This document shows, in pieces, positions 6,194 to 62,254 of a stretch of DNA of 64,000 bases. Position 1 is the stretch's first letter, and each line of letters opens with the position of its first letter. Made by a program: the position numbers and the translations under genes. Origin of the DNA: a virus; IMG/VR virus record IMGVR_UViG_3300034068_000289, positions 1 through 64,000 of that record; one strand, 5' to 3'. The notes beneath the pieces were generated by a model that made no database searches, was not told where the DNA came from, and was given only the letters and a program-made list of their open reading frames with translations.

Positions 6194-7201
6194 TCAAGAC
6201 AACTTTTTCTTTAGATCATCCTGCAAGTCAAGATCTTCTCTAACACGATTGATAAAGCCATCTCTACCCTGAACCTTAGTTCCATCTGGAAGTAAATACC
6301 ACGCACCAGTTCTTTCAACTAAGCCTACTAGTTCTGCTGTATCAACAAGATCTCCAACTGCATCTAGGCCGATTGAGTCTCCTCTGAAATAGAAATCATA
6401 TTCTCCTGATTGAAAGCCTGGAGAAGTTTTTGAGAACTGAAGTTCCCACTTAATCTTTCTTCCAACTTTTTCCTCAATCAACTTATCTCCTACCTTAATC
6501 TTTCCTTTAATCGCCTGATTGTCGGACTCGGAACTAAATAACTTAATAATGCAAGAGGAATAAAACTTAGTAGCCTGACCACCAGAAGGCTGCTGACTAG
6601 TATACATAGCATTAATATTATTGCGAGACTGACTAATAAGCACAAGCAGAGTAGGCTTAACTTTATTATTAGCATAGTTAAGCATCTTCCATGCATTGCT
6701 AAAGTCACGGGATTCTGCTCCAATCTGTTTTGTATTTTCCAAGGCCTTCATCTCATCAGTATCTTTTTCAAAATAGATTGCTGGAAGCATTGATGTAATA
6801 GAGTCTACCACAATTAAGTCTACTCCAGCATTCATTAATCCAACGCCTACGTCTACCATATCACTGATAGTTCTTGCCTGTGAGTAGATTAATTTTTCTG
6901 GATCTACCCCGAGTTGTCTAGCCCAATCTTCTGAGTATGACATTTCTGAATCAATCCAAGCACATAACTTTCCTTCTGCCTGGGCCAGAGCAATCATCTG
7001 AAGACACATAGAAGACTTTGCAGAGGACTTTGATCCCCAAATAAGAACTTGTCTTCCGTATGGCAAGCCACCGCCAAGAGCCTTATTTAATCCAAAACTT
7101 GGCGTTGGCTGAAATTCATACGAAACTCCAACACCAGTGCCTAATTTCTTTCTCAACTTTGGATCTAGTTGTGCAAACGCTTCTTCTAAACTAACCGACA
7201 T
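6194..7201 (-). CDS. recA: RecA-like recombinase
   Basis: A 335-residue RecA/UvsX-type ATPase for strand exchange and recombination-dependent replication. Visible landmarks are the P-loop G56-S-K-S-S-A61-K62-S63, the catalytic Glu segment IDSEMSYS (E86), Walker B LIVVDSITS (D133), and the ISQSRNN segment near residue 205. The P-loop carries Ala where RecA has Gly (GxxxxGK), reminiscent of the altered P-loop of T4 UvsX. The start MSVSLEEAF at 7201 is preceded by GGAGG at a 5-base distance inside the end of dnaE, so a longer reading from 7243 is rejected. Overlap with dnaE is 11 bases. Confidence 0.85.
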   Translation of the reverse strand: MSVSLEEAFAQLDPKLRKKLGTGVGVSYEFQPTPSFGLNKALGGGLPYGRQVLIWGSKSSAKSSMCLQMIALAQAEGKLCAWIDSEMSYSEDWARQLGVDPEKLIYSQARTISDMVDVGVGLMNAGVDLIVVDSITSMLPAIYFEKDTDEMKALENTKQIGAESRDFSNAWKMLNYANNKVKPTLLVLISQSRNNINAMYTSQQPSGGQATKFYSSCIIKLFSSESDNQAIKGKIKVGDKLIEEKVGRKIKWELQFSKTSPGFQSGEYDFYFRGDSIGLDAVGDLVDTAELVGLVERTGAWYLLPDGTKVQGRDGFINRVREDLDLQDDLKKKLS

Positions 7202-10200
7202 GTATATCCTCCAATGTAACTGTCCCGTCTTTTGTCTTTCCAAAACTAAATTTATAAGACTTTCCTTCTTCTAGATTCATGTATGCCCTAGCAAAAGATG
7301 TAGGGAATACCGTGATAGAGTGAAGATCTCTAGATGTGTCAGCAAGTGTTAATGATGCCATCTTCTTTCCAGTTTTTGTAATCCTTGGTTTAAAGGATAC
7401 CACAAACATTTCCTCCTCTGTAAAAGGTAACTGCTTGTAACTAAGAAACTTTACCAGCGCATTGCTTGATGTTTTTATTTCATCAGCAGGAACTGCAGAT
7501 ACAATCCTATTATCGTTTGCAAGAATAAGATAAGTACGACCAGTCTCAATAGTGGTTGCTTCTTCATCAAATATACCAACACTCCCAGTCTTGTCCAAAA
7601 CTTCAACTCGTGACCATCCTGTTCCTCGCTTAATTGATTTTACCATACCTAGAAGGATATAAGATCCCTTCTCTTCAAAATCACACACGTCCTGAATAAA
7701 TGCGTAATAGTGTGAGGGAATAGTAATATTAAATTCTGGAAGGTTTAAATACTCGTAAAGGTTTTCTTTAATCTGAGTATCATTTCTTTCATTGTCTGGA
7801 AATGTTAGTGCGCCAATCATATTCATAGCCTGTAGTGCACGGCTATTAACTCCATTACCTTTTGTAAAAGTAAACTCTTCTACTTCCTTATAAGATTTAA
7901 AAGGTCTAGCAGCAATATATTTTTCAGCAATGTTATTAGAAATATACTTAATTGCAGTAAGTCCAAACCTAATACCCTTGCCTTCAATTTTAAAGTCAAA
8001 GTCGGAGTCGTTGATGTGTGGAAGTTTTACTGAAATACCCATACGCTTTGCCTCAATAAGATATCCAGTTCTATTGTCTTTGTCTTTCTCATTCTTTAGA
8101 AGAGCAAACATAAACTCAAGTGGATAATAATACTTTAGCCACGCCGTCCAATACGAGAGCGTAGAGTAAGCAACCGCATGAGACTTGTTGAACGAGTACC
8201 CAGCATGCGCTTCGAAGTCGTGCCATAGATCACGAGCCTGATTGGGACTAATAAAGGCAGAAGCACCCTCGACAAACCTTTCTTTGAACTCGTCAAAGTC
8301 TTTAGCATCTTTTTTCTTTCCAATGATTTTTCTAACTTTATCTGCTTCCGACATGGACATTTGTCCAAGGTGTACGCATGCTTGCATAACTTGCTCTTGG
8401 TATAGGATGCAGCCATAAGTGTCCTCCGTGAATGGTTTCATAATTTGGTGACTATAAGAAACGTTTTGCTTTCCATGCTTACGTGCAATATAGTCTTTGC
8501 CAATTGTATTCATTGCTCCTGGTCTAACTAGTGCGTTAGATGCAGCAAGTTCGTTAAAATTCTTTACCCCCATTTTTATAAGAAGGTTTGTATATGGAGT
8601 TGCTTCACACTGGAATACACCTTTAGTGTATCCATCAGAAAGCATTTCATAAACTTTTGGATCTGCAAGATCAAGAGAGTCTAAATTAATATCCTTATAG
8701 TGGTTTTCTTTAATCATTGCAACTGCATCCTGAATAACGCTTAGCGTCTTTAGTCCAAGTGCGTCAATCTTAATTAGTCCAATTCTTTCCGCTTCTTCCA
8801 TGTCGACTCCAACCACTGGAATCCTATCGTCAGATCCAGGAGAAGAACGAGTTTCCATCGGCGCATACCTAAAGATTGGATCTTTACTAGTAACAACTCC
8901 TGCAGCGTGAATACCAGTACCCCTAATTCGACCACGTAATTGCTCTCCATACATCTCCACCTCTGGATATTTTTCTCTAAACTCTCTAGTTGATTTTGAA
9001 GTACAGTATTCGTCCCAAGTGTCAACCATCTTTAAAACCTTGTTAACATCTGTTAGTGGAATATTTAATACTCTTGCAACATCTCGTACGACTCCTTTAT
9101 CTTTAAACTGTAAGAACGTAGCAATGGATGCAACGTGCCTATATTGTCTAACTAGATAGTCTTTAACCTCATCACGGCGAGAGTCTTGAATGTCCGTATC
9201 AATATCTGGAAAGTCATTACGATCTGGATTAATAAAACGAAAGAACAGCAGTCCATACTTTAATGGATCAACATCTGTTATTCCGAGTGTGTAGCATACT
9301 AAAGAACCTGCTGCAGATCCACGACCTGGACCAACCATAATGCCTTCCTTCTTTGCCCAAGCAATCATGCTCTGAACAACAAGGAAGTATGGAGCAAACT
9401 TTTTATTTTTAATAATCTCTAATTCTTCTTCAACTCTAGCAACATATTCTTCATTATCCGACAAACCCTTTAACTCTAAACCCTCAAATGCAATCTTTCG
9501 TAATTGTTTGTCTGGACTCTTATACTGTACTGGAAGTAAATTTAAGCCTTCTTCTATACCATAGTCTTCTACTGTATCTGCCAATAGTATTGTGTTTGAG
9601 TATATGTCTGCCCTATCTATCCCCTGCAATTCCATGGCAGCCTTAATCTCATCATAAGATAAAAGGTGGATATCAAATTTATTAAATGTTATTTGTCGAT
9701 CTTCTCCGTATAGGTAGTCAAGGCGCTCCATCATAGATTCGATCTTTGCTGACTTTGCATATGTTGTATCTTTACTTATTTTGCCGTGGGTGTTCATTAA
9801 TAATTTAAATTCTTGAATTTCTTTTTGTGATGGGTCAACGTGGTGACAGTCTGGAGTCACAACAACTTTAATATTAAATTCATCTGCTAAAGCAATAAGA
9901 TGCTTATTTATACTTGCTTCGTTGTGGGGCATTACCTCAATGTAGTAGTCATCTCCAAAACGATCTTTAAACCAGGAGATATACTTCTTGGCAAGTGCAA
10001 ACTCTTCTTCTTCTAATGCCTTGACCAAAACGCTACTTGGGCAGGCAGAGGTTACAATAATTCCCTCTTTGTATTTTTCTAATATTGTAAAGTCAAACCT
10101 TGGCTTTTTAAAGAATCCATCAGTCCAAGATAATTCGCTAATCTTATTTAAGTTTTCTAAACCAATTTTATTCTTGGCTAGAAGGATAATGTGATTATAG

Positions 10201-10466
10201 ACAAGATCTTGTTGACCTTCTCTTTCAGATTTATCTCGTGTATCAGATATATCTGCACACATGTATCCTTCTAGACCTAGAATCGGTTTAACGCCCTTTG
10301 CTTTTGCAACACGGTGCAGTTCCCTGTGCCCAGATAAAGTACCGTGGTCGGTGATAGCAATTGCTGGCATCCCCAACTCAACTGCACGGTCAACGTATTC
10401 TTCTGGAGTAGCAACACCATCAAATAATGAATAGTGTGTATGGACGTGTAAACCTACGTAGTTCAT
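7191..10466 (-). CDS. dnaE: DNA polymerase III alpha subunit (DnaE-type)
   Basis: A 1091-residue C-family replicative polymerase. It opens with a PHP domain (GLHVHTHYSLFDG, then ITDHGTLSGH), a metal-dependent phosphoesterase/proofreading-type module. The polymerase core shows GPGRGSAAGSLVCY and, near residue 415, the catalytic aspartates FPDIDTDIQD. A helix-hairpin-helix region (GNGVNSRALQAM) and a C-terminal OB-like fold (RITKTGKKMASLTL) follow. This matches the order in bacterial DnaE at slightly shorter length. It starts 2 bases after the stop of the putative ssDNA-binding protein gene and overlaps recA, forming one replication operon. No separate epsilon or beta-clamp gene was seen. Confidence 0.95.
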   Translation of the reverse strand: MNYVGLHVHTHYSLFDGVATPEEYVDRAVELGMPAIAITDHGTLSGHRELHRVAKAKGVKPILGLEGYMCADISDTRDKSEREGQQDLVYNHIILLAKNKIGLENLNKISELSWTDGFFKKPRFDFTILEKYKEGIIVTSACPSSVLVKALEEEEFALAKKYISWFKDRFGDDYYIEVMPHNEASINKHLIALADEFNIKVVVTPDCHHVDPSQKEIQEFKLLMNTHGKISKDTTYAKSAKIESMMERLDYLYGEDRQITFNKFDIHLLSYDEIKAAMELQGIDRADIYSNTILLADTVEDYGIEEGLNLLPVQYKSPDKQLRKIAFEGLELKGLSDNEEYVARVEEELEIIKNKKFAPYFLVVQSMIAWAKKEGIMVGPGRGSAAGSLVCYTLGITDVDPLKYGLLFFRFINPDRNDFPDIDTDIQDSRRDEVKDYLVRQYRHVASIATFLQFKDKGVVRDVARVLNIPLTDVNKVLKMVDTWDEYCTSKSTREFREKYPEVEMYGEQLRGRIRGTGIHAAGVVTSKDPIFRYAPMETRSSPGSDDRIPVVGVDMEEAERIGLIKIDALGLKTLSVIQDAVAMIKENHYKDINLDSLDLADPKVYEMLSDGYTKGVFQCEATPYTNLLIKMGVKNFNELAASNALVRPGAMNTIGKDYIARKHGKQNVSYSHQIMKPFTEDTYGCILYQEQVMQACVHLGQMSMSEADKVRKIIGKKKDAKDFDEFKERFVEGASAFISPNQARDLWHDFEAHAGYSFNKSHAVAYSTLSYWTAWLKYYYPLEFMFALLKNEKDKDNRTGYLIEAKRMGISVKLPHINDSDFDFKIEGKGIRFGLTAIKYISNNIAEKYIAARPFKSYKEVEEFTFTKGNGVNSRALQAMNMIGALTFPDNERNDTQIKENLYEYLNLPEFNITIPSHYYAFIQDVCDFEEKGSYILLGMVKSIKRGTGWSRVEVLDKTGSVGIFDEEATTIETGRTYLILANDNRIVSAVPADEIKTSSNALVKFLSYKQLPFTEEEMFVVSFKPRITKTGKKMASLTLADTSRDLHSITVFPTSFARAYMNLEEGKSYKFSFGKTKDGTVTLEDIHVG

Positions 10467-40443: not shown

Positions 40444-43400
40444 TTACGTAGAAGTCTGTACTCCTTGTTGCCATCTAACGTCCGAGTTTACAGAATATTG
40501 ATATTTTCCTACAATTAATGGCAAAGAGTCATCAATAACAAACCTATTTGTACCGATAAATGTCTTATAGAGTGTTTCTGGGTCTACACCGTAAAGGCTT
40601 GTCGTAGCAACAACCAAGACTTCATCCCAATTAAAATCTAGGTCCCAGAAGGTCCACTCGTAAAGATCTTCTGGATCATTAGTAACCTTGACTCTAAACC
40701 AGGGTCTGGTCTGCAAGTCTCTAACTTCTGAAAGCCTACTTGCATCGTACAGGGATATATTGTTAATTGTTACTGGACCAGATACTGAAAACTTTCCATT
40801 TATGCTGTTTAAATTTAAAAGGTCTGAAAAATAAATCCCCAGCATGTCCCAGTGTCCAGCCTGAATTACTGGTTCACGACTAACTGTTCCGTTAACATAA
40901 AAAGCAATTCCACTTTCTACAATTCCTGTAGCAGCATTTACTGCATAAAGTTTTGCACGTTTCCCATCTGAAGTATTTGCAACTAAGAATATATCTATAA
41001 ACCTAGTACCATTGTCAAAACTTAAGATCTTGACTGGAGAAAATGGGAAAAATTCATAGTCATATCTTAGTGAAAATTGTGCTGCCATTAGGTTATATGT
41101 AGATGATTTAGATGCATTAATTGGTATTGCAATTCCTCTGTCAACCCCGCTTTTAAAATCACCCTTTATAGAGATTCCGCTATCTCTTGTTAAGTATAAG
41201 TATGGGGTGCTCTTTTTATAAATGCTATACGGGTTTGCAGTTTTGTAATCATAATAAAGTCCAGATTTGGCGTATGGGTATATATCTACTCCAAATTTAG
41301 TTCCAACGGGATTAAATCCATCCTCGCTAAAAGATTGTGATGAAAGTTGTAATTGCTTTATTGACATAGGAAGAGAAAGCATTGACCTTGTAATCATGTC
41401 AACTGAAATCGATATGGACATATCTTCAAAATTTACATCTGATGGAGGATAAATAATCATACCGTCAACTACTTCGTAGGCCGTGTTTATCCAGTTTGGC
41501 CCTGCAATAACTGTTCCATTTTTATTTGGTGCAACCTGAAGGTTATACGCAGAGTCTGGAGTCTGCCCAGCACTCTCTGTATATTCAAAGGTCACTCTAG
41601 TTCTTATAGGATTTTCTGATGTGTCATACGAATATGTTTTCTCAGATCTGTTTTTTAGGTCTAAATAATCATTATAGTTAGTATAAAGTTGATTATTTAA
41701 ATAAGCATAACTGTTAAATTCTTCGCTACTATATGCCTGCTTTAAGTCCTCATACTTCCAAGACCCAAGGCTTTCTACTGTAACAAATTTGCTTGGAGAA
41801 GGAACGGAAATATTAAACTGTAAAAAATCAAGGTCATAATATGAATCACCGTATGAGTCGTTTACGTATTTGCCAAAATAAGTTAGTGGCAAGGTGGTCT
41901 TCCAATATCCGTGGCACCCAATATCAATTTTAAAAAGACCCATGAAATATTGCGGAAGCAAAGAATATGAACTTACTACTGACCCAATTCTTGAAGATAC
42001 ATAAGAAGATACATTTCCTCCATCTACCAGATTTGCCCAGAAAGCAGTGTTATAAAATTCTGCGTCATAGTCAGTCTCGCCCACATAGGGCCCTGATGTG
42101 TAGTCTGCAAAAACGTTTTCGTAATCTAGTGGAACACCCTTGTCTGAAAATCCATAAGATACTAGGTCTAGAGTATCTTTGTTTGCAAAATGAATTCCAA
42201 AGATTTTTCCACTAAAAGTATTTGTAAACTCTTTTGTTCCACCAACATACACTGACAGTGAAGCCCTGTTGCCAAATAATGTTGCTGCATCGCTTCCAAA
42301 AGCATCTCTAAATTTATCAATACTTATTCCAGCAATAAAGGGGGATCCAACAAGGACTCCTTCTGCAGAATAGGCTACTGAAATGTTTCCTCCATTTTTA
42401 AACTTATACTTTAACGACTCTCCAACTAACTCTAAAGAAAAATAATTACCGCTAGACGAGTCTTCAATCCTAATTAAAACCTGAGCCTGAGTTTTGTGTT
42501 CTGCAATCTTGAATACCCCATACACGGCCTCTGTTCTATCTGTTAAAATGTTTAGTTTGTCAAAATGAATATATCCATTAGTGGATGCCCAATCAACTGA
42601 AGGCCTAATCGTTAAAAAATTTCCATCGTTGTCATTTTGGATTGTAGAGTTGGCAAGATAGAAATCATCATAACTTTTATTAGAAAAAACAAAATCTGGC
42701 AACCTATAGTTTGGCGTTGAAAGAGTGTTGTTTGTTATTGACAGGTTTGTAAAATATCCACTTGCCCAAGAGCCTTGATCTGGGTAAGAATAGTTATTTG
42801 TATATTTAGAAAATGGATAGTCAATTACGGTTGAAGTTCCTCCATATGAAGAATTTAAAATTTCTGGGTACTCCACTCCTTGACCATAAACGAATCTTCT
42901 TTTTGCAACTAGTGCTGGAACCTTATATGGATATATAGCAATTGCGTCAATATCAAACTGAGTTATCTCGCTGTATGAATAAAACCCAATCCAGTCATTA
43001 TCAAAATAAGCGCTACCTATTTTTGAGGTTTTATCTGGAAAAGTAATTGTGTCAATGTCGATAGATATTGAAATAACCTCATCTCCATTAATTAACAAAC
43101 TTGCATTATTTACGCCTACCCTTAAATCAATAAGCATAGGCCTGTACCACTCGTCTATTGCGTATGCCTGAGTGTAGTTGCCGACCCTTAAAATTAGATT
43201 ATTTTTGTAGGAGTATAGGCCATCAGTTGAGGCTACTGGACCGACAAGTCTTTTAGGTGTTGACGTATTGGCAAAAATTCTTAGCCAGAACTCTAAAGTT
43301 TTTTCTTCGTATTTGCCAGACTCGTTTAAAAATCCATATCCTGGGAATATAAAAGAGGGCAGAGTATTGTCATTTGTAATGAGATGAGTCACATTTGATG

Positions 43401-44151
43401 ATCCAAAAACTAGAGGAATTCCAGAATTTTGTGCAAGCAACCTGTTGTTATTTACAAGATAGTACCCTGGAGAATTTTGTAATCCATATGACGGCGCTGC
43501 AATTGCATCGTGACCTGCTAACAATCTAACGGTTGATGGCACCTGAATCTTATTAACCCCTAAAGATTTTGCGCTAAACTCTTCATTCCATTGACCGACA
43601 GTTAAACCATTAACTAAAAACTTATAATCATTTGCTACTCCACCAGGAATATATGATACCTTTATGAATGGCCTAAAGTAGACATCTTGTCTTGGAATAA
43701 TAAATGTGTCAGAAACATTTAGCCACTTTTTGCCTATGTTAACATTAAATACTTTAGAGACAGACTCCGTTGTTCCAGATGTAGAATCATAATACTCATA
43801 ACCAATTTCAACGCTACTTAAATATGTGCTTGGAGAATAAACGTATGCGCCAATTGAGAATACTCTTAAATCTTGATCAAAATCTGTGAATTTAGCAAAG
43901 TCTGGGCTAACTGCTTTTATGTATGTCTTATCTGTTTGGCCATTTAAACTTGAAACAACACTGCTCTGAAATGGTTCATTTTCTGATGTACCCGCAGACC
44001 CTAGTCCATTTTCAATAGTCCAAAGATGAACAGACCTCTTTAATTCTGAATCAACAAAAGAAATATAGTCTGCTGTATCATCAAGCGACCACATTGCTGT
44101 TGGTTGCTCAGAATAAATTTTTTCTGCATAGATGTTTGATGGGTTAGACAT
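40444..44151 (-). CDS. Large virion protein with LamG/concanavalin-like domains
   Basis: A 1235-residue, mostly beta protein. The opening YSEQPTAMWSLDD is the typical first strand of LamG-like jelly-rolls (Y-x-x-x-x-P-x-A-x-W-x-L-D/E). Further lectin-type strands appear around residues 280-430 (LEFWLRIFANTST, PMLIDLRVGVNNASLLING) and in the last third (WDMLGIYFSDLL). Such modules bind glycans or act as virion adhesins. It stands between the ribonucleotide reductase block and the portal gene. No enzymatic motif is seen. Transcription can start at TGA-TAAAAT (44167-44175). Confidence 0.6.
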   Translation of the reverse strand: MSNPSNIYAEKIYSEQPTAMWSLDDTADYISFVDSELKRSVHLWTIENGLGSAGTSENEPFQSSVVSSLNGQTDKTYIKAVSPDFAKFTDFDQDLRVFSIGAYVYSPSTYLSSVEIGYEYYDSTSGTTESVSKVFNVNIGKKWLNVSDTFIIPRQDVYFRPFIKVSYIPGGVANDYKFLVNGLTVGQWNEEFSAKSLGVNKIQVPSTVRLLAGHDAIAAPSYGLQNSPGYYLVNNNRLLAQNSGIPLVFGSSNVTHLITNDNTLPSFIFPGYGFLNESGKYEEKTLEFWLRIFANTSTPKRLVGPVASTDGLYSYKNNLILRVGNYTQAYAIDEWYRPMLIDLRVGVNNASLLINGDEVISISIDIDTITFPDKTSKIGSAYFDNDWIGFYSYSEITQFDIDAIAIYPYKVPALVAKRRFVYGQGVEYPEILNSSYGGTSTVIDYPFSKYTNNYSYPDQGSWASGYFTNLSITNNTLSTPNYRLPDFVFSNKSYDDFYLANSTIQNDNDGNFLTIRPSVDWASTNGYIHFDKLNILTDRTEAVYGVFKIAEHKTQAQVLIRIEDSSSGNYFSLELVGESLKYKFKNGGNISVAYSAEGVLVGSPFIAGISIDKFRDAFGSDAATLFGNRASLSVYVGGTKEFTNTFSGKIFGIHFANKDTLDLVSYGFSDKGVPLDYENVFADYTSGPYVGETDYDAEFYNTAFWANLVDGGNVSSYVSSRIGSVVSSYSLLPQYFMGLFKIDIGCHGYWKTTLPLTYFGKYVNDSYGDSYYDLDFLQFNISVPSPSKFVTVESLGSWKYEDLKQAYSSEEFNSYAYLNNQLYTNYNDYLDLKNRSEKTYSYDTSENPIRTRVTFEYTESAGQTPDSAYNLQVAPNKNGTVIAGPNWINTAYEVVDGMIIYPPSDVNFEDMSISISVDMITRSMLSLPMSIKQLQLSSQSFSEDGFNPVGTKFGVDIYPYAKSGLYYDYKTANPYSIYKKSTPYLYLTRDSGISIKGDFKSGVDRGIAIPINASKSSTYNLMAAQFSLRYDYEFFPFSPVKILSFDNGTRFIDIFLVANTSDGKRAKLYAVNAATGIVESGIAFYVNGTVSREPVIQAGHWDMLGIYFSDLLNLNSINGKFSVSGPVTINNISLYDASRLSEVRDLQTRPWFRVKVTNDPEDLYEWTFWDLDFNWDEVLVVATTSLYGVDPETLYKTFIGTNRFVIDDSLPLIVGKYQYSVNSDVRWQQGVQTST

Positions 44152-44166: not shown

Positions 44167-44175
44167 ATTTTATCA
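44167..44175 (-). promoter_or_regulatory. Extended -10 promoter of the large lectin-like protein
   Basis: TGA-TAAAAT on the minus strand; the TGA is also the stop codon of oxygenase copy 4. AGGAGA and the ATG at 44151 follow. Confidence 0.45.
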
Positions 44176-44703
44176 CACAATGCGGGTAAACCAGCGTGGT
44201 GTTGTGAACCTTGTTCCAGAAATAATTTCTTTTACTCCGTGAACATATCTAGGCTGATCTGGGAAACAGAGTAGATCTCCTGGTTCTGGCTTAATGGAGA
44301 TTTGATAATCTGGAAAATAGATCTCTCCGCCTTCATAATCATCATTTAAATATACAAGAGTTGCTATGTCGTTTGGTCTTGAAGAGTCAAAATGCTCATG
44401 CATTCCATGTCCTTCTTCAAATTTTGCAATATGTGTCTTGTGAGGATTGAAGGGTTCAAAAGATTCTCCATAGGTGCTCAATACATGACCATAAACCTTT
44501 AAAGCATAGTCTTGCATTAGTTCTAGGATTGACGCATCATTTTCTTCAATTTCATGATATGTATAAACCTTAAATTCTTTCTCATTATTTCCATGCATTC
44601 TAAACCCATCAGGGAAAGTCTTTGCATGACTATAAATTTTTGCAGCATCATCTGCATTCATAAAACCTTTAACGTGATGTATCTGTGACACGTAGTCCTC
44701 CAT
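44173..44703 (-). CDS. 2OG-Fe(II) oxygenase (prolyl-4-hydroxylase-like), copy 4
   Basis: A 176-residue enzyme of the prolyl 4-hydroxylase-like group. The triad is H104-x-D106 (HEHFDSS) and H155 (RYVHGVKEI), with R165 (SGTRFTTP) as the 2OG anchor. Between them is the P4H-type block LVYLNDDYEGGEIYFPD and a PGDLLCFP loop. P4H-like proteins hydroxylate prolyl or other residues in proteins. It is coupled to the ribonucleotide reductase gene by TAATG at 44703. Substrate unknown. Confidence 0.8.
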   Translation of the reverse strand: MEDYVSQIHHVKGFMNADDAAKIYSHAKTFPDGFRMHGNNEKEFKVYTYHEIEENDASILELMQDYALKVYGHVLSTYGESFEPFNPHKTHIAKFEEGHGMHEHFDSSRPNDIATLVYLNDDYEGGEIYFPDYQISIKPEPGDLLCFPDQPRYVHGVKEIISGTRFTTPRWFTRIV

Positions 44704-46824: not shown

Positions 46825-46968
46825 TTAGTTAAAACTCATACCTCTGTGAGCATCTTTTGTTTTTTTAGTAAGTTTATTAAATGTAACAGTTTGTTCTATT
46901 CCAGTTACTGGACATTTTTGAATTGATGTTCGATACCCAAGAATGTGCAAGAAAAACTTCTTTATCAT
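46825..46968 (-). CDS. Small basic hypothetical protein
   Basis: A 47-residue protein, MIKKFFLHILGYRTSIQKCP, with the continuation VTGIEQTVTFNKL and a basic C-terminus. The start forms an ATGA overlap with the oxygenase gene upstream, which is good evidence that it is translated although it is very short. The sequence is amphipathic and basic; no domain is recognised. It precedes the nrdJ promoter region. Confidence 0.45.
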   Translation of the reverse strand: MIKKFFLHILGYRTSIQKCPVTGIEQTVTFNKLTKKTKDAHRGMSFN

Positions 46969-47600
46969 ATGATAGGAACCCAATGCTGCTCTGGAGATCC
47001 TTGCATATTCTTTAGTGGAGATATATCGTAGGCAATAGTAATTCTATCTTTTTCAAATGGCCAGTTACTTATTCCGTGTGCATGCCCAGTTTCTGAAATA
47101 ATTGCACGATTATTAACATTTACATTCAAGAATTCTGTTTCACCAGATATAAGATACTTAGTATATGAAGGCTCTGCATTGACACAGTAGTATCCATGAA
47201 AATCAGGTGCTCCTTGACCATTTAGGTGGTCATGTAAGTAGTTGTTTGGGAGTGGCTCTGGCTTGCTATTCTTATCAGAATTAAACCATCCCTGAATCAT
47301 ATAGTTTTGCTCTTCAGCATTAATACCATAGTGTTCGCATGCCTCTAGGACCATGTCCCTGATAGCCTTGTAAAGTTCTCTAATGTTCTCATTGTGGAAC
47401 TGAAAGATATTATACTTTTCCCCCAACTGAGTGGTGAATGAAGATCTATCAACTAACTCATAGTCAGAATTAGTTACCCCTGGCACATTTTCAGATGAGA
47501 GTCTTTGCTTAAGATCAAGCAAGTATGTCTCAAAGTTTCCAAGATCTAAGTCTAGGTGTCTTTCAAAAAACTTATGCTGAGGCTTCGACATCGCTATCAT
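46965..47600 (-). CDS. 2OG-Fe(II) oxygenase-like protein (HDH type), copy 5
   Basis: A 211-residue protein. The metal-binding motif appears as H123-D-H125 (LHDHLNGQG), with GHAH near residues 172-175 as the distal histidine(s) and R186 in DRITIAYD. GAPDFHGYYCVNAEPSYTKY forms the strand after the first ligands. This resembles the 2OG-Fe(II) oxygenase group in which HxH replaces HxD. It is paralogous to the next gene over most of its length. The start at 47600 gives an ATGA overlap; longer and shorter alternatives at 47615 and 47591 exist. Confidence 0.6.
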   Translation of the reverse strand: MIAMSKPQHKFFERHLDLDLGNFETYLLDLKQRLSSENVPGVTNSDYELVDRSSFTTQLGEKYNIFQFHNENIRELYKAIRDMVLEACEHYGINAEEQNYMIQGWFNSDKNSKPEPLPNNYLHDHLNGQGAPDFHGYYCVNAEPSYTKYLISGETEFLNVNVNNRAIISETGHAHGISNWPFEKDRITIAYDISPLKNMQGSPEQHWVPII

Positions 47601-48256
47601 GCAAGAGGAATCCAATGCTGTTCTTGATCCATTCCAAACCTTTGAATATCTCTTAGCGGAATAACGTCATATGCAACCGTAATTCTTGGACCTTCCCAAT
47701 CCCAGTCTGCCATAGAGTGTGGGTGACCCATCTCCGAAAGTATTGCACGATCATTCTTGTTGTGATTCTCAATTTCTTTATCAAAAACCTTGTAGTATGT
47801 AATTGAAGGCTCTGCGCTTACAGAGTAATATCCGTGGAAGTTTGGAGCACCTGTTGGACCATGATCATGCCAGTCTAGTTTTCCTTTGCCTGCATGCGTA
47901 ATGTTAAACCATCCCTGTAACATAAACTTTTCTTTTTCAAAGTCAACTCCGTAGTAATCACAAGCCTCAATAGTCATGTCTTTAACAGCCTTGTATAAAT
48001 TATAAATACCAGTTGAGTGGAATTGGAAAACATTATACTGTCTCCACTTCATTGTTGACACACTATTAGATTGCTTCCATGCTTCGTTAGCCCCTACTGG
48101 AGTTACACCTACAACCTTTGCTTTTTCAATCTTTTCGTATCTGTCCTGTAGTTCTGATGCTAGGACTGATAGATTATTATCAAGGTATCTTTCAAAAAAC
48201 TTATGTGGTTGAGTGGACTTGCTCACACTCTGAATATCCGTTGGATAGTTGTTCAT
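47597..48256 (-). CDS. 2OG-Fe(II) oxygenase-like protein (HDH type), copy 6
   Basis: A 219-residue paralogue of copy 5. It shares H130-D-H132 (DWHDHGPTG), GAPNFHGYYSVSAEPS, GHPH at 177-180 and R191 (PRITVAYD). The N-terminal helical part with PHKFFERYLD is also shared. A TGG-TATACT box (48282-48290) and an AGGGAG ribosome site precede it. The pair follows the sulfotransferase gene, so the three probably act on related substrates. Confidence 0.6.
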   Translation of the reverse strand: MNNYPTDIQSVSKSTQPHKFFERYLDNNLSVLASELQDRYEKIEKAKVVGVTPVGANEAWKQSNSVSTMKWRQYNVFQFHSTGIYNLYKAVKDMTIEACDYYGVDFEKEKFMLQGWFNITHAGKGKLDWHDHGPTGAPNFHGYYSVSAEPSITYYKVFDKEIENHNKNDRAILSEMGHPHSMADWDWEGPRITVAYDVIPLRDIQRFGMDQEQHWIPLA

Positions 48257-48296: not shown

Positions 48297-49013
48297 TTAA
48301 AGTGGCTTTGGATTAGACCTTTTTACCATCTCATATAAAATTATATCATGCTGGTTTAGTTCTTTAATCCTGTTAATCATTTTATCAGTTATGTCAAACC
48401 TTTTAGAGGTGCTTGAGTTAAACTTAGCATCCCTATTATCAAAATTGGGAACAAACCCATAGTTATTGCTCATATATCTTGTAATGTCGTCAAGAAGAAT
48501 ATCCCTAGTCTCTACGGTGTAACAACTAACAGAGTTAACCTTATCCTGCATAACTGATTCATCAAAGGAATAGTCTTTAAGCAGCCACCCATTCATGGTC
48601 TTGTCCATTACACTTCTAGTGTTATTAAATCTTTCTTCATCGACTGTCCCCGTTAAAAATTTTGTTTGCATATCTGAAAGGTGTGGATATATTTCTGGGT
48701 TGTATAACCACTCGTCAAATATCTTTTCAAGTTCCTCAAAACTTTTAGAGTTTTCATACATAAAGAAAAACCAACTAATGAATCTGTCAACTGGATCTCT
48801 AAAGATAGAAAAAGATTTTAAATTTTTAATAAATAGACTAGGATAGTTTCCTAAGTGCCCAGAAATAAACTCAACATCTTTAAACATATCTTGACTGATT
48901 GGTTTATTATGATATACAACTGCCGACCTTAAACCATTAGTTTGAAAAGCCAAATGGACCCCAGATCTAATAAATAGACCTGAAGTCCTTGGCAAGTGCT
49001 GATGATAAAGGAT
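48297..49013 (-). CDS. Sulfotransferase-like protein; start codon apparently ATC in a TAATC junction
   Basis: A 238-residue protein of the carbohydrate (heparan 2-O-type) sulfotransferase style. The 5'-phosphosulfate loop is HLPRTSGLFIRS near the N-terminus, the 3'-phosphate motif is FRDPVDRFISW (about residues 71-81 in this numbering), and a GH pair follows the second strand (SGHLGNY). These enzymes move sulfate from PAPS to sugars or proteins. No ATG or GTG exists between the upstream in-frame stop and the PAPS loop. The frame opens with ATC at 49011-49013 in a TAATC overlap and AAGG 7 bases upstream, whereas the alternative TTG at 48995 cuts off the first strand. Confidence 0.6.
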   Translation of the reverse strand: MLYHQHLPRTSGLFIRSGVHLAFQTNGLRSAVVYHNKPISQDMFKDVEFISGHLGNYPSLFIKNLKSFSIFRDPVDRFISWFFFMYENSKSFEELEKIFDEWLYNPEIYPHLSDMQTKFLTGTVDEERFNNTRSVMDKTMNGWLLKDYSFDESVMQDKVNSVSCYTVETRDILLDDITRYMSNNYGFVPNFDNRDAKFNSSTSKRFDITDKMINRIKELNQHDIILYEMVKRSNPKPL

Positions 49014-50374
49014 TAAACTGCCTTGTAATTGTGAACTAGCATATTTCCAGCAATGAATGTGTCAACTGGTTCCATATCAAATTTGTAAACTGTTGATGGA
49101 GTTTCATCAATTTCAATTGATGCTACTGTAATTTCATTGAACGAGTGGAAGTTATAGTCATATTCCATAACAATATCTCCTACTTCAAGAAGTCCTGTAG
49201 TTATGTATCCATAGATACCGTTGCGCTTATACAAAATTCCCTGTACTGTTGAATACTTCTTTGTGCTGTCTCCATTAATTGTCAACGTTGCTGGCATTTC
49301 TTTTTCAACTACTGAAGCAACTGTTGTTTTAACAATTTTTTGGTTATGCAATCCTGGAAGTGCCATAGTGTATGGATCAACTTCGCCTTCGTCATCCATT
49401 TCATCGAATGAGTGTGCCCAGACTTCTTGTCCAGTAACAACATCCTTTGCAGGAATTTGGATATATGAGTCTTCTGGACCAACAACTGATACTAAAGTAT
49501 CAGGAGCAATACATCCTCCTCTTCCTGGTGAGAAGCCGAATACACCAAATGGTGAGAATCCGAATACTCCAAACGGAGAGAAACCAAATGGTGAGAATCC
49601 GAATACACCGAACGGAGAGAATCCGAACACACCGAACGGAGAGAATCCAAATGGTGAGAAGCCGAACACGCCGAATGGTGAGAATCCAAATACTCCGAAT
49701 GGTGAGAAGCCGAACACTGAGAACGGTACGAATGAGAACGTTGTAACAGATGCTGAGAATGCTGACCATTCTGACCAACCATGCTCATTGTATGCTCTTA
49801 CACGATATGTCTGTGCTGTTCCTGCTTCTTGTGAAATGTTTGTTGTAAGAGCGTTAATTGTTGCAGTCTTTCCATCAGATGATTCCACCTGATAGTTAGT
49901 AATTGCTGCTCCTCCATTATCTGCTGGTGCTGACCATGAAACTGTGTCATAGGTTGCACTAGTTGGTGAAGATGCTGTAACTCCTGTTGGAGCATCTGGA
50001 ACACCTGCAACACTTGCATTGGTCTGTGAAGACGATACAGATGTCGTATCCTGTGTCTCTTGTGCAAGTCTTGCTACTGCAATAATTGTGAAAGCATAAG
50101 ACGCTCCCGCTCTAAGACCTGTCACTGTGTATGGTGATGAGGTTACTCCTGTAAATGTCTTTGTGCCATATATTGAGTTAGCGAAAATTGTATAAGAAGA
50201 AGGAGTGGAACCCATAGCGTTCTTATTAAATGCAACGCTGGCTGTTGAAGACATGTATGCCCCACCAAAGCCTGGTGTTACGCTTGTAATAAACGGCTGC
50301 CCTGGGGCTACACCCCAAAAACTTACTGCTGACTTGGCACGTTTTCCGCCCTTGCCACCTTTACGAATTGCCAT
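49013..50374 (-). CDS. FN3 - Phe/Gly/Ser/Pro repeat - Hint domain protein
   Basis: A 453-residue protein. Residues 1-25 are basic and Gly-rich, then come two fibronectin type III-like domains (about 26-117 and 122-215), a striking repeat region (about 215-284) of units FGFSPFGV or FGFSP, and a Hint domain from C288 (GCIAPDTLV) to H448-N449 (MLVHN). The C-terminal tail is YKAV, without Ser/Thr/Cys at +1. Block B reads TVQG at 376-379, so the usual His is Gly. Hint domains self-cleave or splice; with the altered block B activity is uncertain. Sulfotransferase and oxygenase genes follow directly. Confidence 0.7.
   Translation of the reverse strand: MAIRKGGKGGKRAKSAVSFWGVAPGQPFITSVTPGFGGAYMSSTASVAFNKNAMGSTPSSYTIFANSIYGTKTFTGVTSSPYTVTGLRAGASYAFTIIAVARLAQETQDTTSVSSSQTNASVAGVPDAPTGVTASSPTSATYDTVSWSAPADNGGAAITNYQVESSDGKTATINALTTNISQEAGTAQTYRVRAYNEHGWSEWSAFSASVTTFSFVPFSVFGFSPFGVFGFSPFGVFGFSPFGFSPFGVFGFSPFGVFGFSPFGFSPFGVFGFSPFGVFGFSPGRGGCIAPDTLVSVVGPEDSYIQIPAKDVVTGQEVWAHSFDEMDDEGEVDPYTMALPGLHNQKIVKTTVASVVEKEMPATLTINGDSTKKYSTVQGILYKRNGIYGYITTGLLEVGDIVMEYDYNFHSFNEITVASIEIDETPSTVYKFDMEPVDTFIAGNMLVHNYKAV
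49520..49740 (-). repeat. 24-bp/15-bp tandem repeats encoding FGFSPFGV and FGFSP
   Basis: Imperfect tandem repeats inside the FN3-Hint gene. The encoded units alternate between FGFSPFGV and FGFSP. Such arrays can change length by slippage or unequal recombination. The codon variation (for example TTC/TTT and GGA/GGT) shows that the amino acid sequence, not only the DNA, is maintained. Confidence 0.85.
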
Positions 50375-50406: not shown

Positions 50407-51819
50407 TTACGCTGTCAAGTCGCCAGAAACGATCCAAGTATCTGTATCACGCTTGATCAATGTTGCCATTGAGTAACGATCACGGAACTTGAGTCCTGGT
50501 GTTTTGAGAATTGTAACTCCTGAAGCAGCAACGATTGTTGTCTGCCCTGTGCCCTTTTGGAATACATCGATTGATGAACCAATATTGAAGGCAACTGAAG
50601 CATTTGTAGGAACTGTAACAGTGTTTGCTGATGCTGATTCCATTTCTACTACATTTCCTTCGTCTGCAAGAACTAAAGTGTAAGAAGTTGTCTTGTTATT
50701 GAATGATGCCAATGTTGCTGCTGTTAGTTCAGCCTTGCTTGCCTTTAGAGCAAGAGCATTTGTCATTGTTGTTGAGAAGTTTGCATCGCTACCAAGCGCT
50801 GCTGCCAACTCATTAAGTGTATCAAGTGCTGCTGGAGCAGATGCTACAAGTGCTGAAACTGCTGTTCCTACGAACGCTGTTGTTGCTACCTGTGTAGTAT
50901 TTGTTCCTGCTGCTGCTGTTGGAGCAGTTGGTGTACCAGTGAAATCTGGTGATGCAAGTGCTGCCTTAAGATTATCTGCTGTATCTACGTATGACTTAGT
51001 TGCAAGAAGTGCTGTGTCAGCAATTCCGTGTACGTTTGTTGTGTCTGCCTCATGCGCTGCAACAGCGTCATCTGCATATGTCTTTGTAGCAAGAGCAGTT
51101 GTATCGGTAATTCCGTGTACGTTTGCTGTTGCTGAATTATGTGTTGAGATTGCTGTTCCACGGCTTGTGGCTTCAGTTGTTCCTACTGCATCAGCATAAA
51201 CCTTTGTAGCAAGAAGTGCTGTGTCAGCAATTCCGTGAACATTAGTTTGATCTGCATTGTGAGTATTAACTTCTGCAAGTGCTGCTGCATCTGCCTTAGC
51301 CTGTGCTCCAGTTGTTGTTTCTAGAAGTGCAGTATTTGCAATTCCGTGTACATCTGTTGTGTCTGTTGAGTGAGTTCCAATCAATGTGTTAACACTTGCT
51401 GTTGTAGCAAGAAGTCCTGTATCTGCAATACCATGGACATCAGTTGTATCTGAATTGTGTGCTGCTACCTGGGACGAAACAAAAGTAACTGCATCTGCAA
51501 GTTCCTTAAGTGTGTCAAGTGCTTCTGGTGCTGATGCGATAAGGTGTGTAAGATATCCAAGTGGAATCTTTCCTCCGCCATCAAGTGGGGCTACGCCGTT
51601 ATTTGCGCCCTTTGATGTTAGTGGGACGTAATCATCAAGAGTACCGCCCAAGTCTTCTAAGTTCTTAAAGTAGGAGAGATCTGACCATGCATTAACGCCA
51701 TCACCAATTTTGAACTGGTTGGTGTCTGTCTCGTATCCAATTTCTCCTGCTGCCAAAATTGGATCTGCTGCCGTCCATTGGGCTGCAGTTCCTCTGCGCT
51801 GTTGCATTCTAGTTGCCAT
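50407..51819 (-). CDS. Tail fibre protein with VHGIADTALLATK repeats
   Basis: A 470-residue fibre. The N-terminal QRRGTAAQWTAADPILAAGEIGYETDTNQFKIGDGVNAW segment is the tail-attachment motif widely seen in phage fibres. Then come five HN-x-D-T-T-D-VHGIADTALLATK-type repeats (about 115-285), an Ala-rich stalk, and a C-terminal beta domain (YTLVLADEGNVVEME, MATLIKRDTDTWIVSGDLTA) shared with the protein at 59484. Receptor binding is inferred. A TGT-TATAAT promoter (51863-51871), a leader hairpin and AAAGGAGA precede it. Confidence 0.75.
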   Translation of the reverse strand: MATRMQQRRGTAAQWTAADPILAAGEIGYETDTNQFKIGDGVNAWSDLSYFKNLEDLGGTLDDYVPLTSKGANNGVAPLDGGGKIPLGYLTHLIASAPEALDTLKELADAVTFVSSQVAAHNSDTTDVHGIADTGLLATTASVNTLIGTHSTDTTDVHGIANTALLETTTGAQAKADAAALAEVNTHNADQTNVHGIADTALLATKVYADAVGTTEATSRGTAISTHNSATANVHGITDTTALATKTYADDAVAAHEADTTNVHGIADTALLATKSYVDTADNLKAALASPDFTGTPTAPTAAAGTNTTQVATTAFVGTAVSALVASAPAALDTLNELAAALGSDANFSTTMTNALALKASKAELTAATLASFNNKTTSYTLVLADEGNVVEMESASANTVTVPTNASVAFNIGSSIDVFQKGTGQTTIVAASGVTILKTPGLKFRDRYSMATLIKRDTDTWIVSGDLTA

Positions 51820-56830: not shown

Positions 56831-57424
56831 TTACTTACAAAAGGAAATAGCAGCATACTTTCTTCCACTTGTTATTGGAAGAACTCTATGAACATAATCT
56901 ACCGATGAAGGGAAGATCAACAGATCTCCTGCAGACGGCTTAAAGGGTGTGCCAATATGATCCCTAAACTCTACCTCTCCGCCCTCATAGTCGTCGTTTA
57001 GGTAATAAACCATTGATACTAAGCATGGGTGAGGGGCTCCATTGTCTGAATGCCATGTAAGTTTTTGAGTTTCTTCATACGACAGCAACTCCCAGGCTTC
57101 TCTTTCTACAATCTTAAATCCGTATTCTTTAATAAAATCAATCAATGCAAGAGACGTCTGGCTAATTATTTTTTGATTAAGTTTTACCTTTTCTAGTCTT
57201 AGATCTATCCCAGCAATCGACTTATCTGCTTTGCCTGTGAATAAACTAAAAACGGTACAAGATCTTAGATTTGTATCGTACTGATGGTTATTAATTGTGG
57301 CATTTCTAAATCCAGCATCTGGATGCTTGACAGTAATTTCATTGGCTGCCTCAATAATTGACATTGGAGTTTCAGATATATTGTGGTATACCACTATCTT
57401 GTCCCCTAGTATTGTTTTTTTCAT
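56831..57424 (-). CDS. 2OG-Fe(II) oxygenase (prolyl-4-hydroxylase-like), copy 7
   Basis: A 197-residue P4H-like enzyme. The triad is H125-x-D127 (TWHSDNG) and H179 (YVHRVLP), with R188 (SGRKYA) for 2OG; the YYLNDDYEGGEVEF strand and AGDLLIFP loop are present. It ends 2 bases from the endolysin gene on the other strand. It is one gene away from the (INT)n/Hint gene and may act on that protein or a neighbour. The substrate is unknown. Confidence 0.75.
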   Translation of the reverse strand: MKKTILGDKIVVYHNISETPMSIIEAANEITVKHPDAGFRNATINNHQYDTNLRSCTVFSLFTGKADKSIAGIDLRLEKVKLNQKIISQTSLALIDFIKEYGFKIVEREAWELLSYEETQKLTWHSDNGAPHPCLVSMVYYLNDDYEGGEVEFRDHIGTPFKPSAGDLLIFPSSVDYVHRVLPITSGRKYAAISFCK

Positions 57425-57432
57425 TTTGATCC

Positions 57433-58020
57433 TTATCTAAACCAGTTTGGCATTGAATATTTTGTACCCGCTATTACTTCTTTTGCATAATGAGAAAATA
57501 GATTTGTTGATGGAAAAACTAAAAACTCATCTTTTTTTGGCTTTAATTCTAAGTCTATATATTTAAAATTTATTTCTCCCCCAAGGTAATCATCATTAAT
57601 ATAGTATACCGTAGACACTTGTCTTGGATATGCCCTGGAGGCATCTGTATGCAATTTAAAAAAATCCCCAACCTCATACTTTAATAAGGCCCAGCCTTCT
57701 CCCTCTAAATCAAAATATCCATAACTATTTTGATAGTCATTAAGGCATTGTTTGACTGCAGCATCTACCGTATTTTTTAAATTGGATACCGCCAAAGATA
57801 CATCTTCTTCTTTGTAAATTCCATTGAGTCCAAAAACTGATCCTTGGCGCAATTCTGGTATTACTGTTGCAATATTGCCATTGCCTCGACCAGTTGTTGT
57901 TTTGCTCCAAGAAATTTTGCCATCTGTTACAAGTTTAGCAAGGGCATTAACATAATCAATAGATCCTGGAATCAAACCAGTGTAGCCTACAACTCCTGGA
58001 AAGTATTCAACCTTGTTCAT
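57433..58020 (-). CDS. 2OG-Fe(II) oxygenase (prolyl-4-hydroxylase-like), copy 8
   Basis: A 195-residue enzyme. H124-x-D126 (KLHTDASR) and H177 (FSHYAKEV) are the metal ligands; Lys187 stands where Arg is usual (AGTKYS), a known alternative for 2OG binding in this superfamily. YYINDDYLGGEINF and DEFLVFP match copies 4 and 7. It starts at the stop of the Hint gene (TAATG at 58020). Coupled translation with the Hint protein is likely. Confidence 0.7.
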   Translation of the reverse strand: MNKVEYFPGVVGYTGLIPGSIDYVNALAKLVTDGKISWSKTTTGRGNGNIATVIPELRQGSVFGLNGIYKEEDVSLAVSNLKNTVDAAVKQCLNDYQNSYGYFDLEGEGWALLKYEVGDFFKLHTDASRAYPRQVSTVYYINDDYLGGEINFKYIDLELKPKKDEFLVFPSTNLFSHYAKEVIAGTKYSMPNWFR

Positions 58021-59474
58021 TATTTTGCCATATACATGTTGTGTACCAGAATATCTGATGCAAAATACATATCCTTCACTTCAGTATCAATTGAAACAAC
58101 ATTAATTAAATCGCTTATATACTCAATGGATTCAACCAGGACAGTATCTCCTTCACTATCAACTATGTAGTCTCCAACGACAACGCCTTCCATTGGAGAG
58201 AATCTCCAGAAGCCGCCTCTCTTAATAAACATTATGTGCTCATATGTTACATTTAATTTATTATTAAGGACATAGTGCCCTGGGTTAGTTAACTTCTTAA
58301 TGTCTGTAACAGTTGTTGTTGTAAATGTTGAATCATCAATATTATTAGAAGTCCATGAATCTAGAATTGTAGGATATTCCTCATCTGGCAATGACGAAAC
58401 GCTCAGAGATAGCAATTCGTCTCCAATAACCAAATCTTCGATGTTCTTGTATGTTCTATCTGAAAGAAGAATAGGAGTTCCATAAGCCAAGCATCCATAA
58501 CCGCCATAACCGCCCGTATTAATAGTATTAATAGTATTAATAGTATTAATTGTATTGATCGTGTTAATTGTGTTAATAGTATTAATTGTATTAATAGTAT
58601 TGATAGTATTAATAGTATTGATGGTGTTAATTGTGTTAATTGTGTTAATGCTGTTATTACATGAATCTATACACTCATATCTTGTTCCAATTTGCTGTCC
58701 TGAACAGTTTAAGACCTTAAGTCTCATTGCTACACCACAGCACTCTGCTCGAAAAACAGTTCCTGATGGGATCTCATCGTCATTACATACGTTAATTGTG
58801 TTAATAGTGTTAATAGTGTTAATCGTGTTAATTGTATTAATTGTGTTGATTGTATTAATTGTGTCTGGACAGTTACAGGAAACACAATTTGTAGTGTATG
58901 TCGTAGTTGGTGTTCCAACCCATCTAATCTGGCTTGCATCTGCTGGACATCCTGCTGGGCAGAATGGAAAACTTGGGCACATTAAGAATCTTGCTTCTGC
59001 TTGACCGCTTATAGTCTTTAGTGTTCCATCAGTTCCTTCACAGTAGTATTCTGTTCTAGTTCCAAGAGACATCCAGGGTCCATATTCGTAAGGGCATGTA
59101 TTGGTGTTGATTGTGTTGATTGTGTTGATTGTGTCAATTGTGTTAATTGTGTTAATCGTATTAATTGTGTCAATTGTGTTAATTGTGTTAATTGTTGCAA
59201 TTGTATTAATCGTGTTAATGGTGTTAATTACAGGAACATAAGAATAGTAGGAAATAGATATAGTTGTTTCATAATCTACTGCAGTTCCACCAGGGATTGA
59301 CTGTGAAGCAACCTTTTGATCTAGGCTAGCAGTTGGAGTTGTTACTGGGGTGCTAATAAGTGCAACACCTAGTCCAAGATTTTGTAAAGATGTCATTGCA
59401 TCTCCATATATGAAAGTCGATAAATCTGGTACGACCACCATACCTTTTCCAAAAAGCCCCAGTGTGGTTAACAT
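58020..59474 (-). CDS. PASTA - (Ile-Asn-Thr)n - Cys-rich - Hint domain protein
   Basis: A 484-residue protein. Residues 11-77 read as a PASTA domain (MVVVPDLS, AMTSLQNLGLGV, VASQSIPGGTAV), a peptidoglycan- or wall-binding fold. Three arrays of Ile-Asn-Thr follow (about residues 83-124, 206-228 and 276-320), separated by Cys-rich segments with at least 14 cysteines. A Hint domain starts at C328 (GCLAYGTPILL) and ends in H478-N479; block B has T410 and H413 (TYEH). After Asn comes MYMAK, so no splicing nucleophile is seen; N-terminal thioester chemistry could still occur. Two oxygenase genes follow. Confidence 0.7.
   Translation of the reverse strand: MLTTLGLFGKGMVVVPDLSTFIYGDAMTSLQNLGLGVALISTPVTTPTASLDQKVASQSIPGGTAVDYETTISISYYSYVPVINTINTINTIATINTINTIDTINTINTINTIDTINTINTINTNTCPYEYGPWMSLGTRTEYYCEGTDGTLKTISGQAEARFLMCPSFPFCPAGCPADASQIRWVGTPTTTYTTNCVSCNCPDTINTINTINTINTINTINTINTINVCNDDEIPSGTVFRAECCGVAMRLKVLNCSGQQIGTRYECIDSCNNSINTINTINTINTINTINTINTINTINTINTINTINTINTINTINTGGYGGYGCLAYGTPILLSDRTYKNIEDLVIGDELLSLSVSSLPDEEYPTILDSWTSNNIDDSTFTTTTVTDIKKLTNPGHYVLNNKLNVTYEHIMFIKRGGFWRFSPMEGVVVGDYIVDSEGDTVLVESIEYISDLINVVSIDTEVKDMYFASDILVHNMYMAK
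58515..58649 (-). repeat. Ile-Asn-Thr codon array, 15 units
   Basis: Fifteen uninterrupted units of 9 bases that encode INT. Codons vary (ATT/ATC, AAT/AAC, ACT/ACA/ACG), so it is not a perfect DNA repeat; selection on the peptide is likely. It lies just before the Hint domain. Confidence 0.9.
58791..58859 (-). repeat. Ile-Asn-Thr codon array, middle block
   Basis: Seven INT units plus a final Ile-Asn-Val, between two Cys-rich segments. Confidence 0.85.
59103..59228 (-). repeat. Ile-Asn-Thr codon array, first block
   Basis: About 14 units with single variants (IAT, IDT). It follows the PASTA-like domain directly. Confidence 0.85.
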
Positions 59475-61558: not shown

Positions 61559-62254
61559 TTAGAACGTTGAAATATAGATTGATTTTAAAACTGCCATGGA
61601 GTCTAGGTCTGCCCTTAGTTGTGGAACTATGCCACTTGACTTGTCTACGCTATCGTCTAGATATAGTAAGTGGGTTGTTGATAGTTCGTAGTCATATTGG
61701 TATTTAAGGTTTGCAACAAAACTTGTAACAGCCTTACCAGTGTCTGGAAAATAGGATCTTGCCCAAACCTCAGTATTATTACCATATGTCGCTAAATCAA
61801 AAGTGTATGTAATTCTAAGTTGTGACCCAATGTCTAAATGCTTTAGGTTGACTCTACGAGTTTCAGGATTATATAGACTTATATTGTCTTTAGGTAAATA
61901 TTTTTCATTTGTTCCCTTGCCAAGAGCATCTACATAAACGTCTACCCAGCCATCGTCTCCACGTGTTGCTCCAAGTGAAAAATTTACAGGGTTTCTATTG
62001 TCGTAATTAGCCCATCCATCGGCAAATAAAGACTTTCCATCCTTGCCTGCTGGTCCACGTTCGCCTTGTACTCCTGCGGGCCCCTGCGGGCCTGTCTGGC
62101 CATCTAATCCCCTAGGTCCTGCTGGCCCCTGTGGACCTTGAACTGGTATATAAAGACTGCTGTCTATAGATCCTATTTCTTGTGATTGCTGAACTTGATC
62201 AGCGTAATTTGTTTTTCTGCTACCTGGAAAATCTGTGCTTTTGCTTAATGACAT
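61559..62254 (-). CDS. Collagen-like fibre protein
   Basis: A 231-residue protein with 12 uninterrupted Gly-X-Y triplets at residues 40-75 ([12 protein letters not shown] and so on) between a polar N-terminal part and a beta-rich C-terminal domain ([31 protein letters not shown]). Collagen-like stretches trimerise phage fibres. Proline stands only in X positions, not in the Y position preferred by classical prolyl-4-hydroxylases. It is coupled to the 33-residue gene by TAATG. Confidence 0.75.

Follow-up and report, generated by a model that had tools for sequence, protein, structure and literature searches.

The window analyzed here, 64,000 nucleotides of viral DNA covering positions 1 to 64,000 of the IMG/VR record IMGVR_UViG_3300034068_000289, encodes a protein of 484 amino acids (58020..59474, minus strand) which joins a PASTA domain, three arrays of the triplet Ile-Asn-Thr (INT) and a C-terminal Hint domain, and which is directly followed by two genes for 2OG-Fe(II) oxygenases. 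These linked oxygenases represent the main new point of our analysis; they are located outside 58020-59474 and were absent from an earlier annotation of this DNA made from its letters alone (referred to as the sequence-only reading). We propose a tail adhesin with a Thr-rich stalk, which cognate phage-encoded enzymes would hydroxylate and, in a subset of phages, glycosylate as well, and which would mature by self-cleavage of the Hint domain; we give this interpretation an even chance of being correct.

Analysis of the open reading frame with Pfam and PHROG profiles, together with unit counts and TRF, yielded the order PASTA-(INT)n-Cys-(INT)n-Cys-(INT)n-Hint, with all parts on the minus strand. 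The PASTA-like domain of the sequence-only reading was recovered at residues 13-74 (59253..59438) by Pfam PF03793, with a score just above the cut-off (E=4.8e-5; 23.7 vs. 23.2 bits). Relatives in which PASTA likewise occurs together with an array and Hint (L098, L105 and L118) gave stronger matches, and a BFVD entry named as PASTA protein shows the same Hint fold. TRF located three 9-bp arrays within the gene, and the three arrays claimed earlier, with 15 units in the last, were counted as 14 units of INT, IDT or IAT (residues 83-124; 59103..59228), 7 units of INT (residues 206-226; 58797..58859) and 15 units of INT (residues 276-320; 58515..58649). Likewise, the former estimate of at least 14 cysteines could be fixed at exactly 14 before residue 328, eight of them in a first Cys-rich region differing between relatives (residues 127-202; 58869..59096) and six in the module C..(D/E).IPSG..(Y/F)R.ECCG...C...C...C (residues 230-272; 58659..58787), which is kept in relatives with INT, PT and QNT arrays. 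The Gly-rich linker GGYGGYG (58494..58514) leads up to the predicted N-terminal cleavage site Gly327/Cys328. It is followed by the BIL-like Hint domain from Cys328 to Asn479 (58038..58493), delimited by profiles, model and relatives, and by the five-residue tail MYMAK (58023..58037), in which a +1 nucleophile is absent. Since the same protein with identical array lengths was found in two more metagenome contigs (L003, L004), the reading frame is not an assembly artefact.

The neighborhood, as judged from PHROG and Pfam matches, includes proteins resembling tail-fibre PHROGs and Mtd_N, e.g., a collagen-like gene (61559-62254) and an Mtd_N protein (50407-51819). This position among tail-fibre-like genes makes a role of the 484-residue protein as tail adhesin likely. 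A search for (INT)n-Hint proteins, which had been suggested with the first description, was run in IMG/VR with Hint and INT pattern queries and returned many array-Hint contigs. The accompanying claim that this architecture is undescribed in phages consequently stands only in part: openly accessible papers on Hint- or intein-containing tail fibres, PASTA-Hint proteins and BUBL did not contain the PASTA-array-Hint arrangement, but array-Hint proteins as such are frequent in viral contigs. A nucleotide search with 24 kb of the window against named phages gave no match. Bacterial genomes contained only distant Hints (best about 32% identity), so that the array-Hint family looks viral.

We assign the C-terminal domain to the A-type BIL domains and predict from its sequence and model that it cleaves itself rather than splices. 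It matches PHROG 38766 (E=1.3e-13), and an AlphaFold model built from 24 sequences (pLDDT 91.7) found its Foldseek matches among BIL, intein and hedgehog structures, the best in the PDB being BIL2 of Tetrahymena BUBL1 (6y75, E=1.7e-10) and a Clostridium BIL (2lwy, E=3e-8); the sequence profiles agree with this assignment. The residues named in the sequence-only reading, block A Cys328, block B Thr410/His413 and the terminal His478-Asn479, are all present. Cys1, TxxH, the block F Asp, the penultimate His and the Asn are invariant in 24 relatives, with catalytic residues constant down to about 35% identity. Gly at position -1 of Cys1 is nearly invariant as well, which makes the suggested thioester chemistry at Cys328 plausible. 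Splicing, in turn, had been considered unlikely on the basis of Met480; in the relatives this position is taken by Phe, Leu, Asn, Tyr, Ile, Val-type residues or Ala, and none of the 24 carries Cys, Ser or Thr there. A splicing intein was rejected for this lack of a +1 nucleophile and for a tail of five residues as the sole C-extein. Domains of this BIL type have no nucleophile at +1 and give mostly cleaved products (PMC7664689; PMC5874633), and self-cleavage would therefore be expected here, too. Fold, Cys1, TxxH, the terminal His-Asn and the missing Cys/Ser/Thr at +1 are thus shared with the A-type domains of 2lwy and 6y75, whereas the Hint of the window forms the C-terminal part of a tail-region protein of a phage, preceded by a repeat stalk and with few residues past the Asn. 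A C-terminal Hint in a tail-region protein is likewise found in Phage NCTB and in Erwinia/Dickeya jumbo phages (PHROG 38766; 27-34% identity), but the loci of these phages that we read contain no [IVQ]NT arrays and showed no 2OG gene behind the Hint, whether by annotation or by match. Two tandem Hint-like ORFs were seen in L118 (4141-5480), L122 (4101-5565) and L001 (Phage NCTB); in L118 and L122 a short second Hint-like ORF separates the array-Hint gene from the 2OG gene.

Two other roles of the Hint domain have to be weighed. It could act as a ligation device, in which the Gly327 thioester couples the stalk by a covalent bond to a hydroxyl or amine on virion or host surfaces, a transfer of the hedgehog or BUBL kind. 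The nearest solved fold, stemming from a ciliate ubiquitin-like locus, the Gly-rich stretch ahead of the invariant Cys and the absent +1 nucleophile would fit such a function. However, only 4-9 residues remain past the Hint in most relatives, leaving no acceptor-binding region, and hydrolysis alone would be sufficient, so that we regard ligation as unlikely. Inteins are common in phages (PMC7468147), and the domain might also be a degenerate intein or a mobile element that serves no purpose within the adhesin. This appears very improbable, as every arrayed relative has the Hint at its C-terminus, past a Gly-rich linker, a homing endonuclease domain was not seen in it, and its catalytic residues remain invariant down to the identity level given above.

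Across 18 families (320 units), position 1 of the triplet is Ile in 75%, Gln in 16% and Val in 9%, position 2 is Asn in 72%, Ala in 14% and Asp in 14%, and position 3 is Thr in 98.8% of units. Between neighboring units, 83% of codon differences are synonymous compared to 22.5% expected under uniform mutation, and the array is therefore a feature of the protein rather than chance or a mere DNA microsatellite. All these figures are somewhat flattered, since units were chosen to carry Ile, Val or Gln first and, for the most part, Thr last. The number of units varies in frame, e.g., 23 vs. 31 in two contigs whose proteins are identical outside the array. The sequence-only reading had suggested a narrow beta-solenoid or fibre stalk, considered here as a rigid structure built on Ile stacking. 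The strict triplet register and the strong selection at the protein level would be in line with it, but the strand period is two residues, into which a triplet does not fit. Orthologues moreover carry (PT)n or FSVFSF.. and other relatives the non-hydrophobic (QNT)n at the array positions, hence an Ile core is not required. A full-length AlphaFold model from six sequences was uninformative on the array (pLDDT 30.2), also with respect to a left-handed beta-helix, whose hexapeptide pattern [LIV]-G-x-x-[STAV]-x has a small residue where INTINT has Asn. The solenoid thus found no support and is, in our view, decidedly unlikely. N-glycosylation was rejected as well, since Thr follows Asn directly and the order is N-T-x instead of the sequon N-x-T. 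A control scan of 2.9 million viral contigs for any (XNT)8 array showed that arrays with X = G, A, N or D are numerous in long phage proteins but never occur with this Hint or a 2OG gene. In long ORFs, arrays of the I and Q types were accompanied by the Hint, and by 2OG too where flanking sequence was available; the contigs L037 and L012 end at or shortly past the array, and short ORFs (e.g., L022, L025) had neither. In L020, L023, L050 and L051, a (PPFFPYF)n repeat stands immediately ahead of the INT array of the array-Hint protein, and proline-aromatic repeats are also present in L076 and L114.

The stop of the Hint gene and the start of the first oxygenase gene (57433..58020, minus strand; PF13640, E=4e-13) overlap; in this oxygenase, the HxD...H motif is kept. 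The second (56831..57424, minus strand; PF13640, E=3e-14) follows in a row, has orthologues behind other array-Hint genes and features the iron triad H125, D127 and H179 as well as the basic 2OG ligand K189, all kept in relatives. The [I/V/Q]-[N/D/A]-T array-Hint gene is followed by a 2OG gene in all 18 distinct families (18/18), at a distance of -66 to +35 bp relative to the Hint stop codon; this count covers the loci with flank available and includes loci found by a 2OG query. Among loci found without such a query, linkage amounts to 12 of 12 triplet-array families vs. one of nine families whose arrays are of another kind (Fisher p=4e-5, without correction for ancestry). Triplet arrays are not the sole partners of the oxygenase, as it also occurs with a GGSTNS array (L110) and with FGFTP arrays (L118, L122). 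In the Hint tree, array and 2OG change jointly in two well-supported and, in total, four independent pairs, all in the predicted direction and too few for significance; ancestry, with its 2-4 independent contrasts, is consequently the weakest point of a modification of the array by these enzymes.

At this point, the main rival has to be considered, namely that the oxygenases are ordinary cargo of the tail region, that they act on other targets such as another fibre protein, host molecules or nucleic acid, and that their linkage is simply inherited. Genes for 2OG oxygenases are common in phages (182 named records hold distant relatives), a third one adjoins the ribonucleotide reductase gene in the window itself (44173-44703, minus strand; PF13640, E=6e-11), and the independent contrasts are few. 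However, the Hint-2OG pair survives where other neighbors have become unrecognizable: in distant loci, e.g., L013, L017, L019 and L035, matches to the 12 queries from the window are confined to the Hint and 2OG genes. A prolyl hydroxylase for the collagen-like neighbor was rejected, since this neighbor is 96-97% kept in L007 and L008, where the 2OG genes are missing, and hence is not a required substrate.

Further arguments against ordinary cargo come from natural replacements. In the close relatives L006, L007 and L008, the DNA flanking the locus on either side is 84-88% identical to the window and the Hint is 72-73% identical, but (PT)n, (VSP)n and FSVFSF repeats stand in place of the INT arrays, and both 2OG genes are absent from the locus together with the oxygenase segment. 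Arrays and oxygenases were thus exchanged jointly, and in L007 the slot is alternatively occupied by a GlcNAc-transferase of polypeptide type (PF11397, E=8e-19). We therefore consider ordinary cargo somewhat unlikely, and modification of the array by the adjoining enzymes the simplest account of linkage and joint replacement. Other loci combine several enzymes, such as 2OG and GlcNAc-transferase (E=2e-39) in L088, two 2OG genes and a GT61-cupin protein in L024, a 2OG gene followed farther along by GT25 and methyltransferase genes at the PASTA-(FGFTP)n-Hint locus L118, or a sulfotransferase at the array-Hint locus L076. The GT61 glycosyltransferase of L024 (3173-4816, minus strand) is fused to a cupin-like C-terminal domain and lies near the two 2OG genes. 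The window itself encodes a second array-Hint protein (49013-50374, minus strand) with FN3 domains, (SPFGVFGF)n, GRGGC and a Hint ending in HNYKAV (profile E=3.5e-13); behind it are a sulfotransferase-like gene (48297-48995; PF03567, E=4e-4) and two ORFs which, judged by eye from His-Asp-His motifs, look oxygenase-like (46965-48256).

In the proposed mechanism, the N-terminal PASTA domain would probably touch the host wall, and the Cys-rich modules would be spaced by extended arrays presenting Thr at every third residue. Binding of peptidoglycan or muropeptides is not a property of all PASTA domains. The Hint would cut itself off at Gly327/Cys328 via a thioester and may additionally cleave behind Asn479, leaving a stalk with the end ...GGYGGYG, either free or coupled to an outside nucleophile. 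The adjoining oxygenases could serve as dedicated enzymes hydroxylating the array, most likely at Asn/Asp or Thr side chains, with glycosyltransferases or sulfotransferases adding to this in some relatives; the array-Hint gene and its enzymes would be swapped as one cassette. Thr is the most constant residue of the array, Asn/Asp hydroxylation has the better precedent, and Asn could not be the target in every unit, given the Ala found at position 2. The presence of an oxygenase gene behind the array gene in every sampled phage with such triplet runs suggests that these phages modify the proteins of their own stalks chemically.

Several known systems offer parallels. The 2OG-FeII_Oxy_3 hydroxylases of the prolyl hydroxylase type (PKHD/PiuC) share HxD...H and the basic 2OG-binding residue, but the presumed substrate array contains no proline. 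In Dictyostelium, Skp1 is subject to a system of hydroxylation plus GlcNAc addition. Its combination of 2OG oxygenase and PF11397-type GlcNAc-transferase is paralleled by L088, while enzymes of the L088 type are phage-encoded, stand beside a repetitive stalk lacking a Pro acceptor and have a predicted function. Phage receptor-binding genes are described as flexible, exchangeable modules (PMC7468147), and cassette exchange between otherwise similar genomes is common to both; here, however, the enzyme gene is swapped along with the stalk array.

Tentatively, and with somewhat less confidence than for the single protein, we suggest that aquatic phages carry swappable cassettes which combine a low-complexity array and a self-cleaving Hint with a cognate set of protein-modifying enzymes (2OG hydroxylase, GlcNAc-transferase, sulfotransferase), that stalk chemistry is exchangeable in this way and that [IVQ]-N-T represents a new hydroxylation motif. 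In the openly accessible literature searched, no modification of tail proteins by a phage-encoded hydroxylase or glycosyltransferase was described. A single simple triplet and one or two oxygenase genes form a compact candidate pair of enzyme and substrate. If true, one class of the 2OG oxygenases common in aquatic phages would gain a function, the C-terminal Hint domains of tail genes a role, and stalk chemistry would join the traits exchanged by phages. Regarding the host, the DNA polymerase of the window (7191-10466, minus strand) has its closest counterparts in Streptomyces phages, with 55% identity, and may thus point to an actinobacterial host. Between the portal and oxygenase genes lies an ORF of 1235 amino acids (40444-44151, minus strand) without a Pfam or PHROG match.
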